Below are positions 22,412 to 54,202 of a DNA stretch of 64,000 bases, in pieces. The translations under genes were made by a program, and so were the position numbers. The notes below the pieces were generated by a model that ran no database searches, was not told the DNA's origin, and saw nothing but the letters and a program-made list of their open reading frames with translations. Numbering within the stretch: the stretch's first letter is position 1; each line of letters starts with the position of its first letter. Source of the DNA: Cyanobacterium sp. uoEpiScrs1 (GTDB lineage: Bacteria; Cyanobacteriota; Cyanobacteriia; Cyanobacteriales; Microcystaceae); NCBI RefSeq assembly GCF_947331815.1, contig NZ_OX373462.1:124001-188000 (forward strand), written 5' to 3'.

Positions 22412-23806
22412 ATGAAAAAAAAGCTCAACAAGCCAATTCTGGTGGCAGGCATCAGTATTTCATTTATATTATGGTTTTATGATGGATTCAGCCAGCAAAT
22501 CTTAGAGATAAAAGAATGGGGACTACTTAGTACAATTTTCTTGGGCTTGGGATTTTGGTGGCGGCAAGGACAAAAAGAAACAACAAGTAAGCCATTACCA
22601 GTAACAAGCTTAACTGAAGAATCAGTTAAAGATATTATTAATCAAGGGGAACTAATTCTTAATACTTTATCCACCGAAGCACCAGACTATGATATTTCTT
22701 TCTTTAAGAAACAATTAAATCAATTATCTTTAAGCTTTGATCGTCAACAATTAACGATCGCTCTAGCAGGAGATAAAAAGGTTGGAAAGACAACTTTAAA
22801 AGATAAGTTATTATCTCAAAATATTTTTAATGATATCTCTTTTATAGAAGTAGAATCTTTATTTAAAGAAGTAGAAATGCCTGAAATAAAAGCAGATCTA
22901 ATTCTATTGTTAATTACTGGAGACTTAACTAATTCTCATTGGGAATTTTTACAAAAGTGCAATCAAAATTATCAACGATTTATTCTAGTTTTTAATAAAA
23001 AAGATCAATATATTCCAGAAGAGAGAGTCTTGATTTTAGAACAGGTACAGCAAAAATTAAAATCAATGATCACTCCTTCTGATGTTATTGCCATCAGTGC
23101 TTCTCCTCAATCTCTAAAAGTTCGTGAACATGAAGAAAATGGGACAATTCGGGAGTGGATTGAAGCTCAACTGCCTGAAATCGACCCTTTGAGTGATCGC
23201 TTAAAACTGATTGTAGAACTCGAAAGAAAAATGTTAGTCTGGGGAAGTTTATGGCGTGAAGCAATGTCTCTTAAAAAAGACGTTAAAGCAAATCTTAATA
23301 ACATAAGACGAGATTGTGCTCTACCTATTATTGAAAAATATCAGTGGATTGCAGCAGCTAGTGCTTTTGCTAATCCCGTAGCTGCTTTAGATTTATTAGC
23401 TGCCGCTGCTATTAGTTCTCAATTAGTTATAGATTTGGGAGTGATTTATAAACAGAAATTGTCTTTTTCCCAAGGACGAGTTCTGTCAGGAATCATTGGG
23501 AAATCGATAGTTCAACTAGGATTAGTTGAACTATCAACTCAAACTATTAGTAGTGTACTTAAAAATAATGCTATTACCTATGTTGCTGGAGGAACGGTTC
23601 AAGCAATAAGTGCTGCCTATTTAACCCGTTTAGCTGGATTAAGTCTAGTAGAACATTTTCAAGATCAAGATGTTGATTCAACGGTAGTAAAGGAAATAGA
23701 TCTAAAGCAATTTCCTCAAAAAATAAAAAAGGTTTTCGAAAAAAATAAACGTACTGCTTTGGTCAAAAATTTTATTCAACAGACTTTACCCCGTTTATCA
23801 AATTGA
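22412..23806 (+). CDS. DUF697-type membrane GTPase
   Basis: A 464-residue protein with one or two N-terminal membrane spans (PILVAGISISFILWFYDG and LLSTIFLGLGFWW). A P-loop, GDKKVGKTTLKDKL, lies near residue 122, a probable G3-like region with DLILLLITGD, and a G4-like NKKD near 195. A C-terminal hydrophobic DUF697 region (about 305-430: AAASAFANPVAALDLLAAAAISSQLVIDLG) completes it. Cyanobacterial homologues carry this GTPase-plus-DUF697 layout. The DUF697 family includes E. coli YcjF, but no function is established. The canonical DxxG is not clear. An odd feature is its close pairing with the 2TM gene upstream. Confidence 0.8.
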   Translation: MKKKLNKPILVAGISISFILWFYDGFSQQILEIKEWGLLSTIFLGLGFWWRQGQKETTSKPLPVTSLTEESVKDIINQGELILNTLSTEAPDYDISFFKKQLNQLSLSFDRQQLTIALAGDKKVGKTTLKDKLLSQNIFNDISFIEVESLFKEVEMPEIKADLILLLITGDLTNSHWEFLQKCNQNYQRFILVFNKKDQYIPEERVLILEQVQQKLKSMITPSDVIAISASPQSLKVREHEENGTIREWIEAQLPEIDPLSDRLKLIVELERKMLVWGSLWREAMSLKKDVKANLNNIRRDCALPIIEKYQWIAAASAFANPVAALDLLAAAAISSQLVIDLGVIYKQKLSFSQGRVLSGIIGKSIVQLGLVELSTQTISSVLKNNAITYVAGGTVQAISAAYLTRLAGLSLVEHFQDQDVDSTVVKEIDLKQFPQKIKKVFEKNKRTALVKNFIQQTLPRLSN

Positions 23807-24768
23807 CTTTAACTATTGTCATTAAGATATGTATGTATAATTTATCTTCTTAAATCTTGTCTTATATATTTATGGGACAAGAAAATCATTCCTATTAGTA
23901 ATAGAAAATGCATGGTTTGTTATTATTTAATATATATACTCTGACTTATCATTTTTGCTCTTTTCTTACGACTAAAATTTAATGTAATTCAAAAAAATAA
24001 TGATTACTATAAATATATCAAACTTAAATATATTTCAATATGGGTGAACTTATAGAATATTTTTCAGAGTTTTGAAGTATAGTTAAGTGACTATTGTACT
24101 TGTCTCTATTATTTACTTATCTAATATTATTAAGGTTGATATCTCAATAAAGTTATAAAATTTAGAGAAAATTCTTCGTAAATATAAAAATATTTAGTGT
24201 GCTTGAATTGTGTAATAGTTTTGATGATTTTAGTTTGTTTCTATACAGCATATATCATTTAGTTACTATTGTTTACTTTTAATATTTTGTTTTCACAATC
24301 AGAGAATATATTTACCTCTACAGTCTTAAGTTTAGTATTTCTTCGCAAACATATTAATAACAATTTAAGTTAATAACTTAAATTGTTATTAATATGTTTG
24401 CATAACTAATGTTAGTGTGATAATGTGAGGACCTTAAATTTATTAAAGTCATGATAGCTAATGATTATGAGTTTATTGATTATTATCATTATGTTAAATA
24501 AGAGGTAGTAATCAGATAGCTGAAGGGTCCTTTATTTTGTCAATTTTAGGATTAACTAAATGAATACCCCTCAATATTGATTGAATTTTTAATTAGTTGA
24601 TGCTAATGATTTTCTAATGTTGTAATTTAGTCAATATGACAATATTGACTTTTACTTTTTGTATTTTACCTAGGAAAGCGATTTCAGAAATAGCCTGTAA
24701 AATCAGTTGAGTTCTAAGTCGTATTCAATTGTTGAAATAGTTATATAGTTCAAAAAAAATTTCAGACC
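23807..24768. other. AT-rich gap containing a 27-bp perfect hairpin
   Basis: No intact gene. The palindrome at 24345-24401 is listed separately. Downstream, 24420-24545 contains AGGACC and GGGTCC blocks about 100 nt apart and a 16-codon ORF of no clear meaning. The final stretch must carry the larB promoter. Confidence 0.4.
24345..24401. repeat. 27-bp perfect inverted repeat (3-nt loop)
   Basis: Left arm 24345-24371 and right arm 24375-24401 are exactly complementary over all 27 positions, with loop AAT. The arm starts GCAAACATATTAATAAC and ends AATTTAAGTT. It lies 538 nt after the DUF697 gene and 367 nt before larB, so it is not close to either. There is no T-run. It could be a distal terminator, a MITE-like remnant or a protein-binding cruciform. 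Confidence 0.85.
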
Positions 24769-25542
24769 ATGAATTTAGATGCACTCCAGTCTCTTTTGCA
24801 AGCAATCTCCACAGGAGAAGTCAGTCCTGACCAGGGATTAGAAAAGCTCAAATATTTCAGCTTTGAATCGGTTGATGAATTTGCAAAAATAGATCATCAT
24901 CGTCTTCTACGGACAGGATTTCCTGAAGTTATTTGGGGGACAGGCAAAACTCCTGAACAGATTGCTCAAATTATGCTTACAATGGCATCTCATTCTCCTG
25001 TGGTTATGGCAACTCGTATTGAAGCAAAAATGGCAGAACAACTGCAGAAACAAGTACCTAATTTAATTTACTATCCAGTGGCTCGCATTTGTGCTTTGAA
25101 AACTTCTGAGATTCCTTTAATTGGATTGGGAGTAGTTGGGATTCTTACAGCAGGAACAGCAGACTTGCCTGTAGCCGAAGAAACTGCTATTACCGCACAA
25201 CTTTGCGGGGTTGAGGTACGACGCTTATGGGATGTAGGAGTAGCAGGTATTCATCGTTTATTAAGTTATCGTGAGTTAATTAATCAAGTAGATGTATTGA
25301 TTGTAGTAGCAGGTATGGAAGGAGCCTTGCCTAGTGTAGTAGCCGGAATGGTAGACTGTCCAGTAATTGGAGTTCCAACTAGTATAGGTTACGGAACAAA
25401 TTTTGGGGGGGTTTCTCCATTATTGACAATGCTAAATTCTTGTGCAGCAGGAATTGGCGTGGTTAATATCGATAATGGCTTTGGAGCTGCAATTTTAGCT
25501 GGACAAATCTTACGAACGGCTAATCGTTTAATTAATAAATAA
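24769..25542 (+). CDS. larB: LarB-family pyridinium-3,5-biscarboxylate mononucleotide synthase
   Basis: A 257-residue PurE-like protein. LarB carboxylates and hydrolyses nicotinate adenine dinucleotide to make the precursor of the nickel-pincer cofactor. Family features are the N-terminal helical part with FPEVIWGTGKTPEQI near 58, ATRIEAKMAEQL, the PurE-like core GLGVVGILTAGTADLPVAEE near 120, VIVVAGMEGALPSVVAGMVDCPVIGVPTS, and YGTNFGGVSPLLTMLNSC near 205. No larC, larE or lactate racemase gene is nearby, so this is either an orphan locus or the partners lie elsewhere. A 14-bp hairpin follows 52 nt after the stop. Confidence 0.9.
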   Translation: MNLDALQSLLQAISTGEVSPDQGLEKLKYFSFESVDEFAKIDHHRLLRTGFPEVIWGTGKTPEQIAQIMLTMASHSPVVMATRIEAKMAEQLQKQVPNLIYYPVARICALKTSEIPLIGLGVVGILTAGTADLPVAEETAITAQLCGVEVRRLWDVGVAGIHRLLSYRELINQVDVLIVVAGMEGALPSVVAGMVDCPVIGVPTSIGYGTNFGGVSPLLTMLNSCAAGIGVVNIDNGFGAAILAGQILRTANRLINK

Positions 25543-27688: not shown

Positions 27689-28559
27689 TTCTTTTGAAGG
27701 TAATATTTTTTCTATATGGTGATTAACTTATCCTAGTTCAGTTAGTTGCACTGTTCGTCAGACTTTGTAAATCAATTAAGAATATCCCCATCTACATCAG
27801 ATAGTCTGCTGTTTGACTATTAGTAGCCTAGTTGAGACTATATGATGGATTCTGTTTCAATTTGAAATTCATCTGAAAGCTAATTATATTTAGATAATAG
27901 TAGCTAACAGTTTTTAATTAGTTTTTATCTTGACTAGATAAGTGTGACTAGGACTCTTAGTATTGTATTTATACCGTATATTTTTTAGTGAAAGAAATAA
28001 GATATAAGAGATAAATTTTAGACAAATATTATGATGTTAGTTACTATAGTGTTAACTATAATCTTATAAATTAATAAAAAATAAAGCTAAGCTCGATTTT
28101 TTCTGGATCTGTATTTATGTTATCTTTTTTTGCAAAGTAAAGAATTAGTTTAAATATGCATTAAAAATATATTTAAGTTATCAAGATAAACAGCTTTTGT
28201 TCTAAATATTTATAGTTGATTTGTTTATGATATTATAGGTTTTATATGTTTTTATTGTTTAGACTCTTTATTTTGTTAAATTTTTTTATAAACTTAAATA
28301 TTGATCGATATTTAAGTTTATAAAAAATAATTACTATTGATTAATAATAATCCAAAGAATCTATCGATAAACAATCACTTGAAATACTATTATTTGTAAT
28401 ACAATATAACTCCAGGTTATATAATTAGTTTAGTCAAGAAAAACAAACTAATTAAATTTTATGTAAAATATACAACTATCTTAATTTATGAGTCTTATGG
28501 TAGTTTATTTGAGGTCTTTTTATAGAGAAAAATGGAAAATATTGCATAATTAAACTCTG
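27689..28559. other. AT-rich gap with a 20-bp hairpin
   Basis: No intact gene. 27720-27880 is richer in G+C and may be eroded coding sequence, but no frame is convincing. The rest is AT-rich and includes the palindrome at 28282-28327. Confidence 0.4.
28282..28327. repeat. 20-bp perfect inverted repeat (6-nt loop)
   Basis: Arms 28282-28301 and 28308-28327 (TTTTTTATAAACTTAAATAT) are exactly complementary around TGATCG. The nearest gene upstream ended about 760 nt earlier, and a dead gene starts about 230 nt later. It is AT-only apart from one G/C pair per arm. Confidence 0.8.
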
Positions 28560-32384: not shown

Positions 32385-32411
32385 CAAAATCTAAACACAG
32401 TTTAGATTTTG
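32385..32411 (-). terminator. Hairpin after the pentapeptide gene
   Basis: A 12-bp perfect stem CAAAATCTAAAC (32385-32396) with 32400-32411 and a 3-nt loop, 102 nt beyond the stop on the minus strand. ATTTTGGGAATTATTTT follows on that strand. Confidence 0.55.
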
Positions 32412-40947: not shown

Positions 40948-40997
40948 TTGCTAAACTATGAGGAGTTTTTTTAAAAAAACTCCTCATAGTTTAGCAA
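40948..40997. repeat. Perfect 50-nt palindrome (25-bp arms, no loop)
   Basis: Arms 40948-40972 and 40973-40997 are exactly complementary with no spacer. The arm is TTGCTAAACTATGAGGAG followed by seven T's. In RNA it would fold with a small A/U loop and run A-rich into AGAAAAATATT. Position suggests it was the terminator of the dead pentapeptide gene, yet it has stayed perfect while the gene decayed. Confidence 0.85.
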
Positions 40998-46263: not shown

Positions 46264-46497
46264 ATGAATAAGATTAAAGTAATTTTGTTTGTAATAATAA
46301 GTTCTTGTTTAATATTAGGAAATGTTTCTATCTCTCAGGAGAAGACAAAATTTAGAAAACCCAATAGTCAATTTTCTCGTCTGGAACAGCCGTTGCCATT
46401 AAAACTGTTAGTAACATTGGGGGGAGGAGGATTAATTGTAACAGAAGTTTGGTGGTTTTTATTCAGTAAAACAAAATCTAAAAAGACTAAATCTTAA
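46264..46497 (+). CDS. Small membrane protein, possible stub of a cupredoxin-domain gene
   Basis: A 77-residue ORF from the ATG at 46264; a TTG 18 nt earlier is possible but less likely. It has an N-terminal hydrophobic signal or anchor (KVILFVIISSCLILGNVSIS), a polar linker and a second span PLPLKLLVTLGGGGLIVTEVWWFLFSK, followed by a lysine-rich end. The second segment recalls the membrane anchor ahead of the copper-binding domain in cyanobacterial cupredoxin-domain proteins that neighbour copper ATPases. That resemblance is from memory. No cupredoxin domain follows. It may be a truncated remnant or a short protein in its own right. Confidence 0.5.
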   Translation: MNKIKVILFVIISSCLILGNVSISQEKTKFRKPNSQFSRLEQPLPLKLLVTLGGGGLIVTEVWWFLFSKTKSKKTKS

Positions 46498-52873: not shown

Positions 52874-53534
52874 TTATTTTTTCCAAAATGAGTAATACTC
52901 ACAATGTAAACACTAGAAAAAATGAGGTTATCGCCTCGCTAGGTTCTAAGCGTCATTTTCAGTCCCAGAGAACTAACAATTAAGTATCGTAGTTTAGTTT
53001 TACTAAATAGTATTAGTAATTACACTATAGTATACAATAGATTATTGTAAGCTAACATAATAAATAATTTAAACAATATTATCTACGTTAAGTTTAAGTA
53101 AATTTGACTTAATTAATAAATTAAATTGAAAGGCGGGAAGTGTTCGTCTTCAACGCTGCCCAATCAACTCAATCTTGAAAGCCAGAAGTCCAGCAAGTTT
53201 AAAAAATCAAATTATCTATTTTGCAAGTTGACAGACTATCTTTTTATAAAAAATTACTAAAATAAAAGGGTATATTGTTTTTTATATAATTGCTTAACAA
53301 CTAATATTTAGCTCAGGTGCTATTTCTTTAATTCAATTTTTATTGAATTAAAGAGTATTAGTGATAAAAAGTAATTGGATCTAATTCACTAAACATTTGT
53401 AAATCAAGTTCTTTAATTATTCTCTCTTTTATAAATTATTTATTTTCGTTATTTACTTATGTAAATGTAACTAAGTTTAGTATAAGATTAATGACTAGTA
53501 AACATTTTTTATTAGTTATCTTAGTACTCAATAA
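52874..53534. other. Gap with one hairpin
   Basis: Mostly AT-rich. 53130-53205 is richer in G+C (GGCGGGAAGTGTTCGTC) but not identifiable. A perfect 11-12 bp hairpin CTTTAATTCAA…TTGAATTAAAG lies at 53326-53353. Confidence 0.4.
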
Positions 53535-53572
53535 ATAAGCTTTACTTAAATTACTTTTTAAGTAAAGCTTAT
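53535..53572 (-). terminator. 15-bp hairpin overlapping the phosphatase stop codon
   Basis: Arms 53535-53549 and 53558-53572 (ATAAGCTTTACTTAA) are perfectly complementary. The stop codon of the phosphatase gene (53558-53560) is within the stem, so the last codons are under joint coding and structure constraint. Confidence 0.7.
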
Positions 53573-54202
53573 TTTGGTCTCTGTCTTGTTTAAATGTGAA
53601 GTATCTCCATTTAATTTTAACTGCCAGCGTTCATTTTCATAAACAACCTTAACTAAACAGCATAAAGCAGCTCTAACTTTAGGTTCTCCTTCTACTAATC
53701 CCCAAGTAGTCCCTAATACCGATATCCCATGACCGACTAATAAAATATCTTCGGAAAATTCAGCAATTAATTGCTTGACAATTTCTCCTGTTCGTTGCAT
53801 TACTTTAGTTTCAGTTTCAGGATATTGAGGAATAAATTTTGAGGAGTAATGCAAATTTATCCGAGGATATTTTTGCTTTAAATAGTCAGAAGGATGTGTA
53901 GTCGGATGTTTACTCATCCATTCAGGGTTATGCCATTCAGCGAGTCCCGCTTCCAGTTTAACCTCAAGATTAAGAATTTCCGCTATCTGATGGGCAGTCT
54001 GTATAGTTCTCAAAAAAGGTGAGGAAAAAATATGAATAATATTTTCAGATTTTAGTCGTTTTCCCAGTTGTTGAGCTTGTATAATTCCGTCCTCAGCGAG
54101 AGGGGGATCATAAGGATATTGAGCTGTATTAAACCACTCAGGATTAACAAAATCCATACGATTTCCATGTCTAGCAATCCAAACAGTTTGATTAGAATTC
54201 AT
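53558..54202 (-). CDS. Histidine phosphatase (phosphoglycerate-mutase superfamily)
   Basis: A 214-residue protein from the ATG at 54202, which gives MNSNQTVWIARHGNRMDF. An upstream in-frame ATG at 54244 would add 14 basic residues foreign to the family. The catalytic RHG motif near residue 10, FSSPFLRTIQTAHQIAE near 70, the acid-containing region AGLAEWHNPEWM and LLVGHGISVLG near 160 are present. These proteins remove phosphate through a phosphohistidine; substrates range from sugars to proteins and cannot be predicted here. It is monocistronic and its stop codon sits in a hairpin. Confidence 0.85.
   Translation of the reverse strand: MNSNQTVWIARHGNRMDFVNPEWFNTAQYPYDPPLAEDGIIQAQQLGKRLKSENIIHIFSSPFLRTIQTAHQIAEILNLEVKLEAGLAEWHNPEWMSKHPTTHPSDYLKQKYPRINLHYSSKFIPQYPETETKVMQRTGEIVKQLIAEFSEDILLVGHGISVLGTTWGLVEGEPKVRAALCCLVKVVYENERWQLKLNGDTSHLNKTETKISFT

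Follow-up and report, generated by a model that had tools for sequence, protein, structure and literature searches.

The perfect hairpin at positions 24345-24401 is probably a perfected quasi-palindrome, left as a mutational footprint of template switching, and not a functional element. Taken singly, it is ordinary within a genome-wide pattern, in which a known mutational process takes an extreme form and for which a candidate cause can be named. We infer template switching to be the agent, and we infer for this hairpin the same origin as for the rest of its class.

The window, that is, the whole stretch of 64,000 nucleotides that was analysed, corresponds to positions 124001-188000 of contig 1 of the focal genome (G000), which consists of a single contig of 2,483,960 bases. 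The hairpin lies in the gap between two genes:

22412-23806, plus strand, upstream gene for a DUF697 (PF05128) protein, from an open reading frame (ORF) and a profile match
23807-24768, plus strand, gap of 962 nt between the flanking ORFs, containing what is left of a decayed signal peptidase I (Peptidase_S26) gene and, within it, the palindrome
24345-24372, no strand assigned, left arm of the palindrome, 28 nt, from repeat search and RNA fold
24374-24401, no strand assigned, right arm of the palindrome, 28 nt, from repeat search, the loop being nucleotide 24373
24769-25542, plus strand, downstream gene of the AIR-carboxylase family (PF00731), from an ORF and a profile match

The product of the downstream gene is presumably LarB-like. 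By repeat search, positions 24345-24401 form a perfect inverted repeat of 57 nt with 28-nt arms and a 1-nt loop, which begins 538 nt past the upstream ORF and stops 367 nt before the downstream one. Folded as RNA, the same positions give 27 bp around a 3-nt loop at -33.8 kcal/mol (z -8.6), a value equalled by none of 200 shuffles, and not one perfect palindrome with an arm of at least 15 appeared in 3 Mb of DNA simulated with a first-order Markov model of the focal noncoding DNA. The stem is followed on its 3' side by ATAACTAA, with no T-run, and none of the three Rfam matches within the window falls on the hairpin. The sequence-only reading had reported 27/27 pairing with a 3-nt loop, a distance of more than 350 nt from both genes, the lack of a T-run and a structure well past a normal terminator; the fold, the distances, the sequence after the stem and the simulation bear out each of these points, the description as DNA being 28-nt arms plus 1 nt.

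The origin of the gap can be followed in relatives. Besides the focal genome, the genus is represented by three one-contig genomes of 2.8-3.1 Mb and by three more of 4.6-5.2 Mb; G013 and G021 measure 1.4-1.5 Mb. Judging from size, gene decay and kinship, G000, G001, G003 and G005 (hereafter the four sister genomes) appear to be nitrogen-fixing diatom endosymbionts (spheroid bodies or diazoplasts), and on the same grounds G013 and G021 appear to be UCYN-A-like genomes. The DUF697 gene adjoins the AIR-carboxylase family gene also in G001, G002, G003 and G005. In the larger genome G002, the syntenic gap holds an intact ORF of 349 amino acids that matches PF10502 with an E value of 7.3e-38, that is, a signal peptidase, and the gaps of G001, G003 and G005 carry decayed versions of it. 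The earlier view that the hairpin sits in decaying DNA is made specific: the DNA is a dead gene for signal peptidase, which G002 has intact. None of the corresponding gaps in these four relatives contains a perfect palindrome with an arm of at least 12, and G003 has an 11-bp palindrome at another place in its gap. Absence from sister genomes is half of what the sequence-only reading had named as speaking against it, the other half being a lack of transcript ends nearby. A gapped alignment to the G005 remnant leaves 15-17 of 28 and 17-20 of 28 positions identical in the two arms, varying with gap cost, and ungapped arm matches to the same remnant do not rise above shuffles, 14% and 93% of which are as good.

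Palindromes of the same class recur in the window:

28282-28327, no strand assigned, 20-bp perfect arms with a 6-nt loop, from palindrome search of the window
40948-40997, no strand assigned, 25-bp arms with no loop, from palindrome search of the window
53533-53574, no strand assigned, 18-bp arms with a 6-nt loop, from palindrome search of the window

The second of these is a perfect, loopless palindrome of 50 nt centred on an A/T run in a gap of about 1.6 kb. For a census, perfect palindromes with an arm of at least 15 and a loop of at most 8 were counted in 564 kb of the 2,484 kb of G000 and in 960 kb of its three sisters G001, G003 and G005, "noncoding" meaning outside ORFs of at least 90 amino acids and not outside curated genes. 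In the four sister genomes (1.52 Mb sampled), the 657 kb of noncoding DNA contained 169 palindromes and the 867 kb of ORFs contained 5. For seven larger relatives (G002, G006, G011, G015, G018, G031 and G038; 0.80 Mb), the counts were 1 in noncoding DNA (118 kb) and 0 in ORFs (682 kb). The UCYN-A-like pair had 19 palindromes in 104 kb of noncoding DNA and 3 in 396 kb of ORFs. The longest arm was 31 bp in the sister genomes and 55 bp in the UCYN-A-like pair. The 20 kb of the G003 stretch L075 are also part of the syntenic G003 block and are hence counted twice in the G003 mismatch figures given below and in early placement figures; L075 and L076 were left out of the final census and placement counts. 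The density in G000 is 26.1 per 100 kb of noncoding and 0.28 per 100 kb of coding DNA, and the earlier notion of an individually special hairpin gives way to one of about 26 per 100 kb of noncoding DNA.

How such palindromes change was studied at orthologous sites, in 200-kb syntenic blocks of G001, G003 and G005 compared with one another and with 164 kb of G000. The comparison requires two alignable flanks. At palindrome sites, 45 of 75 sister intervals were about the same length, 20 were longer and 10 shorter or absent, against 100, 17 and 14 of 131 at random sites, so that the same length is kept less often where a palindrome stands; intervals outside the length range were dropped (30 of the 75), 24345-24401 among them. 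At same-length sites, under stiff gap costs, pairing in the sister was 0.60 (n = 38, representing 26 palindromes and hence not all independent), compared with 0.29 at random sites (n = 119) and 0.32 after simulated one-step rewriting (n = 119); these values vary with gap costs, and a looser aligner, superseded by the stiffer gaps, had given 0.61 for the simulated sites. The best sister hairpin score was 8.8 versus 6.1 at random sites (p 9e-6), with scores of at least 11 in 12 of the 38 comparisons and at 0 of 119 random sites. In parallel, the weaker and stronger arms were 0.63 and 0.76 identical to the sister with flanks at 0.76, versus 0.33 and 0.82 with flanks at 0.80 in the simulation, and kept sites were split between the arms 158:83 versus 1181:124 under simulated one-step rewriting. 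The difference between arm and flank identity was marginal relative to random sites (p 0.058). The pairing in sisters, the arm identities and the 158:83 split point to an ancestor that was already like a hairpin and from which the two arms mostly derive. Under template switching the split requires many small events to be invoked, one-step rewriting predicting change on one arm.

In 13 palindromes with arms of at least 14 and two or more sisters, changes derived in the focal genome affected 50 of 469 arm positions, 99 of 1008 flank positions and 12 of 43 loop positions. Among 205 resolved pair columns, assigned by a majority rule that counts the focal genome and is hence biased toward "unchanged", 167 were unchanged, 34 had become complementary on the focal branch and 4 were swapped pairs. 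The 34 gains came through the left arm in 16 cases, the right arm in 16 and both in 2, and directions were mixed in 6 of the 13 palindromes. An earlier polarisation of eight palindromes, superseded by the 13-palindrome analysis, had counted 22 pair columns decayed in a sister against 10 gains on the focal side, 7 of which fell in one palindrome. As a side observation, made post hoc in one region, the outermost new pair arose through the right arm in all 11 palindromes with such a gain, and in 10 of 11 with all sequences reversed, which possibly reflects replication polarity. Closed-end stems of 20 with 0, 1, 2, 3 and 4 mismatches numbered 22, 5, 9, 4 and 1 in G000 and 40, 8, 10, 4 and 4 in G003; perfect stems thus exceed the expectation of steady neutral decay, which by our own derivation is 1:0.65:0.42:0.27:0.18.

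To judge from the sequence comparison, the orthologous gaps are best read as consistent with repeated perfecting of imperfect palindromes. In dead-gene remains, a sequence able to fold on itself would allow the replicating strand to switch template briefly and to copy its own earlier arm, and mismatches between the arms would be erased in either direction. Recurrent rounds would lengthen and perfect hairpins in place while the arm sequences went on drifting; in coding DNA, the same events would be removed by selection, and the palindromes would afterwards decay or be deleted. Repeated correction of one arm by the other predicts what is seen here, arms that remain complementary although they change as fast as the flanks. 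Selection for pairing would usually slow arm change and tie the hairpins to genes. The earlier alternative of a hairpin either recent or maintained had raised the right question, but the orthologous gaps agree neither with one recent insertion nor with simple purifying selection. Against template switching count the strong sister hairpins in 12 of 38 comparisons, which selection could explain, and a G-U lean of 10:1 in G003, such as selection at the RNA level would give; so do the less frequent keeping of length at palindrome sites, the marginal difference between arm and flank identity and, for 24345-24401, ungapped arm matches no better than shuffles.

The strong sister hairpins and the G-U lean belong to another explanation, which we regard as unlikely, namely that selection keeps the hairpins as RNA elements that end transcripts, stabilise 3' ends or block decay, their length making up for the low G+C of an AT-rich genome. 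The RNA fold of 24345-24401 is indeed very stable, some of the 12 sister sites with strong hairpins carry compensatory changes, and the above 10:1 excess of G-U over A-C in G003, counted on the sense strand among the mismatches of near-perfect stems in tandem gaps, holds for stems of 18 as well as of 20. A mismatch count by X-drop over the four sister genomes gave 13:7, which also leans to G-U; this count and a first fixed-length one were superseded by the later fixed-length count (stems of 18 and 20). Against this, G-U is not preferred in the focal genome, where the ratio is 9:12 in stems of 18 and 6:9 in stems of 20, a lean opposite to that of G003. Placement speaks in the same sense: 149 of the 169 sister-genome palindromes lie between two ORFs of a stretch, in convergent, tandem and divergent gaps 29, 85 and 35 times versus 37.6, 75.6 and 35.7 expected (chi-square p 0.21), and convergent gaps of G000 alone hold 4 versus 10.4 expected. 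Positions along tandem gaps in the four sister genomes are as even as under random placement (KS p 0.36), with no crowding near the 3' end of the upstream gene, and TTTT occurs within 8 nt of 0.09 of palindromes versus 0.08 of random noncoding places. Finally, the arms change at the flank rate, and the sister hairpin score is at most 8 in 23 of 38 comparisons. A terminator or 3'-end element is therefore disfavoured by these counts. The UCYN-A-like pair is enriched in convergent gaps (7 versus 2.4 expected, p 0.005), a point on the side of RNA elements, and terminator-like use is possible there.

A recent snap-back, that is, an inverted duplication in which one arm of each hairpin was written from the other in a single event, is quite unlikely. 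In its favour, 46 of 62 long stems in G000 have no mismatch, and two G001 palindromes (22/2 and 25/7) can be read as the result of a deletion that brought a rewritten left arm next to a right end that is conserved. However, 45 of 75 sister intervals are already about as long as the palindrome, and the less similar arm is nearly twice as identical to the sister as in the simulation (0.63 versus 0.33), on which ground a single snap-back insertion was rejected as the general case. Whole-genome amplification is known to produce foldback chimeras, and an amplification or assembly artefact of this kind would give hairpins too, but it would affect coding DNA as well, whereas G000 palindromes are concentrated in noncoding DNA and the sister sites are themselves hairpin-like, which makes it very improbable. 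Least credible of all is a mobile palindromic element of the MITE or REP type, which the hairpin resembles in being short, palindromic and intergenic: the sole strong match of its arm in G000 is its own reverse complement, the next matches in the same genome span only 21-24 nt, and a comparison of 47 palindromes of G000 (46 noncoding, 1 in an ORF) turned up one pair with 14 nt in common. The MITE test proposed by the sequence-only reading is thus negative, and MITEs were rejected for want of related arm copies and of a sequence family. As the class shows no sequence family, T-run or gene orientation, its members are neither MITEs nor ordinary terminators.

For perfecting by template switching, a candidate cause comes from the repair genes. 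RNase HII (PF01351) has no match in any of the six reduced genomes (G000, G001, G003, G005, G013 and G021) and is matched in 31 of the 33 others, the exceptions being the order-level relatives G029 and G038 (39 genomes in total); RNase HI (PF00075) is matched in all 24 genomes examined, a set outside which G021 and G038 fall. Section 6 of PMC12903740 likewise describes all the endosymbionts that it treats as having RNase HI and lacking RNase HII. According to passages of PMC3820800, yeast without RNase H2 accumulates more quasi-palindrome mutations, in dependence on RNase H1, and template switching that perfects quasi-palindromes is described there and in parts of PMC8794818 for E. coli and yeast. 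The idea that palindromes formed faster once RNase HII was lost is speculative, a correlation only, in which endosymbiosis, AT richness and relaxed selection are confounding factors. In G038, also devoid of RNase HII, 9.6 kb of noncoding DNA held 0 palindromes, where about 2 would be expected at sister-genome density. In G000-like noncoding DNA, 172 kb should contain 183 stems of 20 nt with 6 mismatches, and 76 kb of the G006/G002-like kind should contain 31. These densities differ about 2.6-fold, versus about 30-fold for perfect palindromes (26.1 per 100 kb against 0.8, where the lower value stands for a single palindrome); AT richness by itself therefore looks too weak a cause. Loss of SbcCD was rejected, both genes scoring above the cut-off in all seven genus genomes, as do RecJ and MutS. 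The large subunit of ExoVII (xseA) was found in G002 only among the seven genus members; its loss was rejected as the cause, since it is missing from G006 too, which has one arm of at least 15 in 58 kb of noncoding DNA.

Tentatively, and with more doubt than confidence, RNase HII loss at the onset of endosymbiosis may have set off recurrent quasi-palindrome correction, by which the noncoding DNA of nascent nitrogen-fixing organelles would become self-perfecting palindromes. It is an equally tentative conjecture that this arose separately in the four sister genomes and in the UCYN-A-like pair, and that replication-driven concerted evolution of the arms may mimic RNA covariation where no RNA function exists. 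If true, the neutral DNA of reduced genomes would be a natural record of template switching, compensatory change in their stems would be no proof of RNA function, and one lost repair gene would be tied to the mode of decay of organelle-like genomes.

The process itself has precedents. Quasi-palindrome correction goes back to Ripley 1982 and van Noort 2003, as cited in PMC6649704, and template-switch mutation is treated by Monttinen and Loytynoja 2022 (PMC8794818), passages of which describe inverted repeats perfected in place through multi-base and compensatory changes, as here; the focal class differs in its perfect arms of 15-31 bp, its density of about 26 per 100 kb of noncoding DNA, the lack of a recognisable RNase HII and gains in both arms. 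The nematomorph mitochondria of PMC6649704 likewise have, in the parts that concern them, many long perfect palindromes with arms identical while the species' sequences vary, for which the authors weigh repeat conversion and template switching; those palindromes reach 284 bp and lie inside genes, whereas the sister-genome class reaches 31 bp, is nearly all noncoding and is bacterial. The yeast of PMC3820800 is alike in that mutations extend arm complementarity and need RNase H1, RNase HI being present here, and unlike in being a eukaryote under experimental reporter assays with high transcription. Bacterial surveys (PMC10434271 and PMC4060949) share the excess of inverted repeats, with endosymbionts making up 28 of the 200 richest bacteria in the relevant passage of the former and sequence-directed mutagenesis discussed in the latter; as far as their pertinent sections go, they are frequency counts without comparison of orthologous gaps or a link to repair genes. 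Such palindromes in diatom endosymbionts or UCYN-A are not reported among the matches listed, which is no proof of absence from print, and the strings "palindrom" and "inverted repeat" have 0 occurrences in the main texts of PMC12903740 and PMC5638926.

At 32385-32411 the window has a different hairpin, whose core, AATCTAAAC-GCA-GTTTAGATT with close variants, is conserved, while its outer stem varies in sequence yet stays paired in all four sister genomes; its orthologues lie at block positions 46385 in G005, 47143 in G001 and 55257 in G003. As a functional RNA or terminator it is a more promising candidate than 24345-24401.
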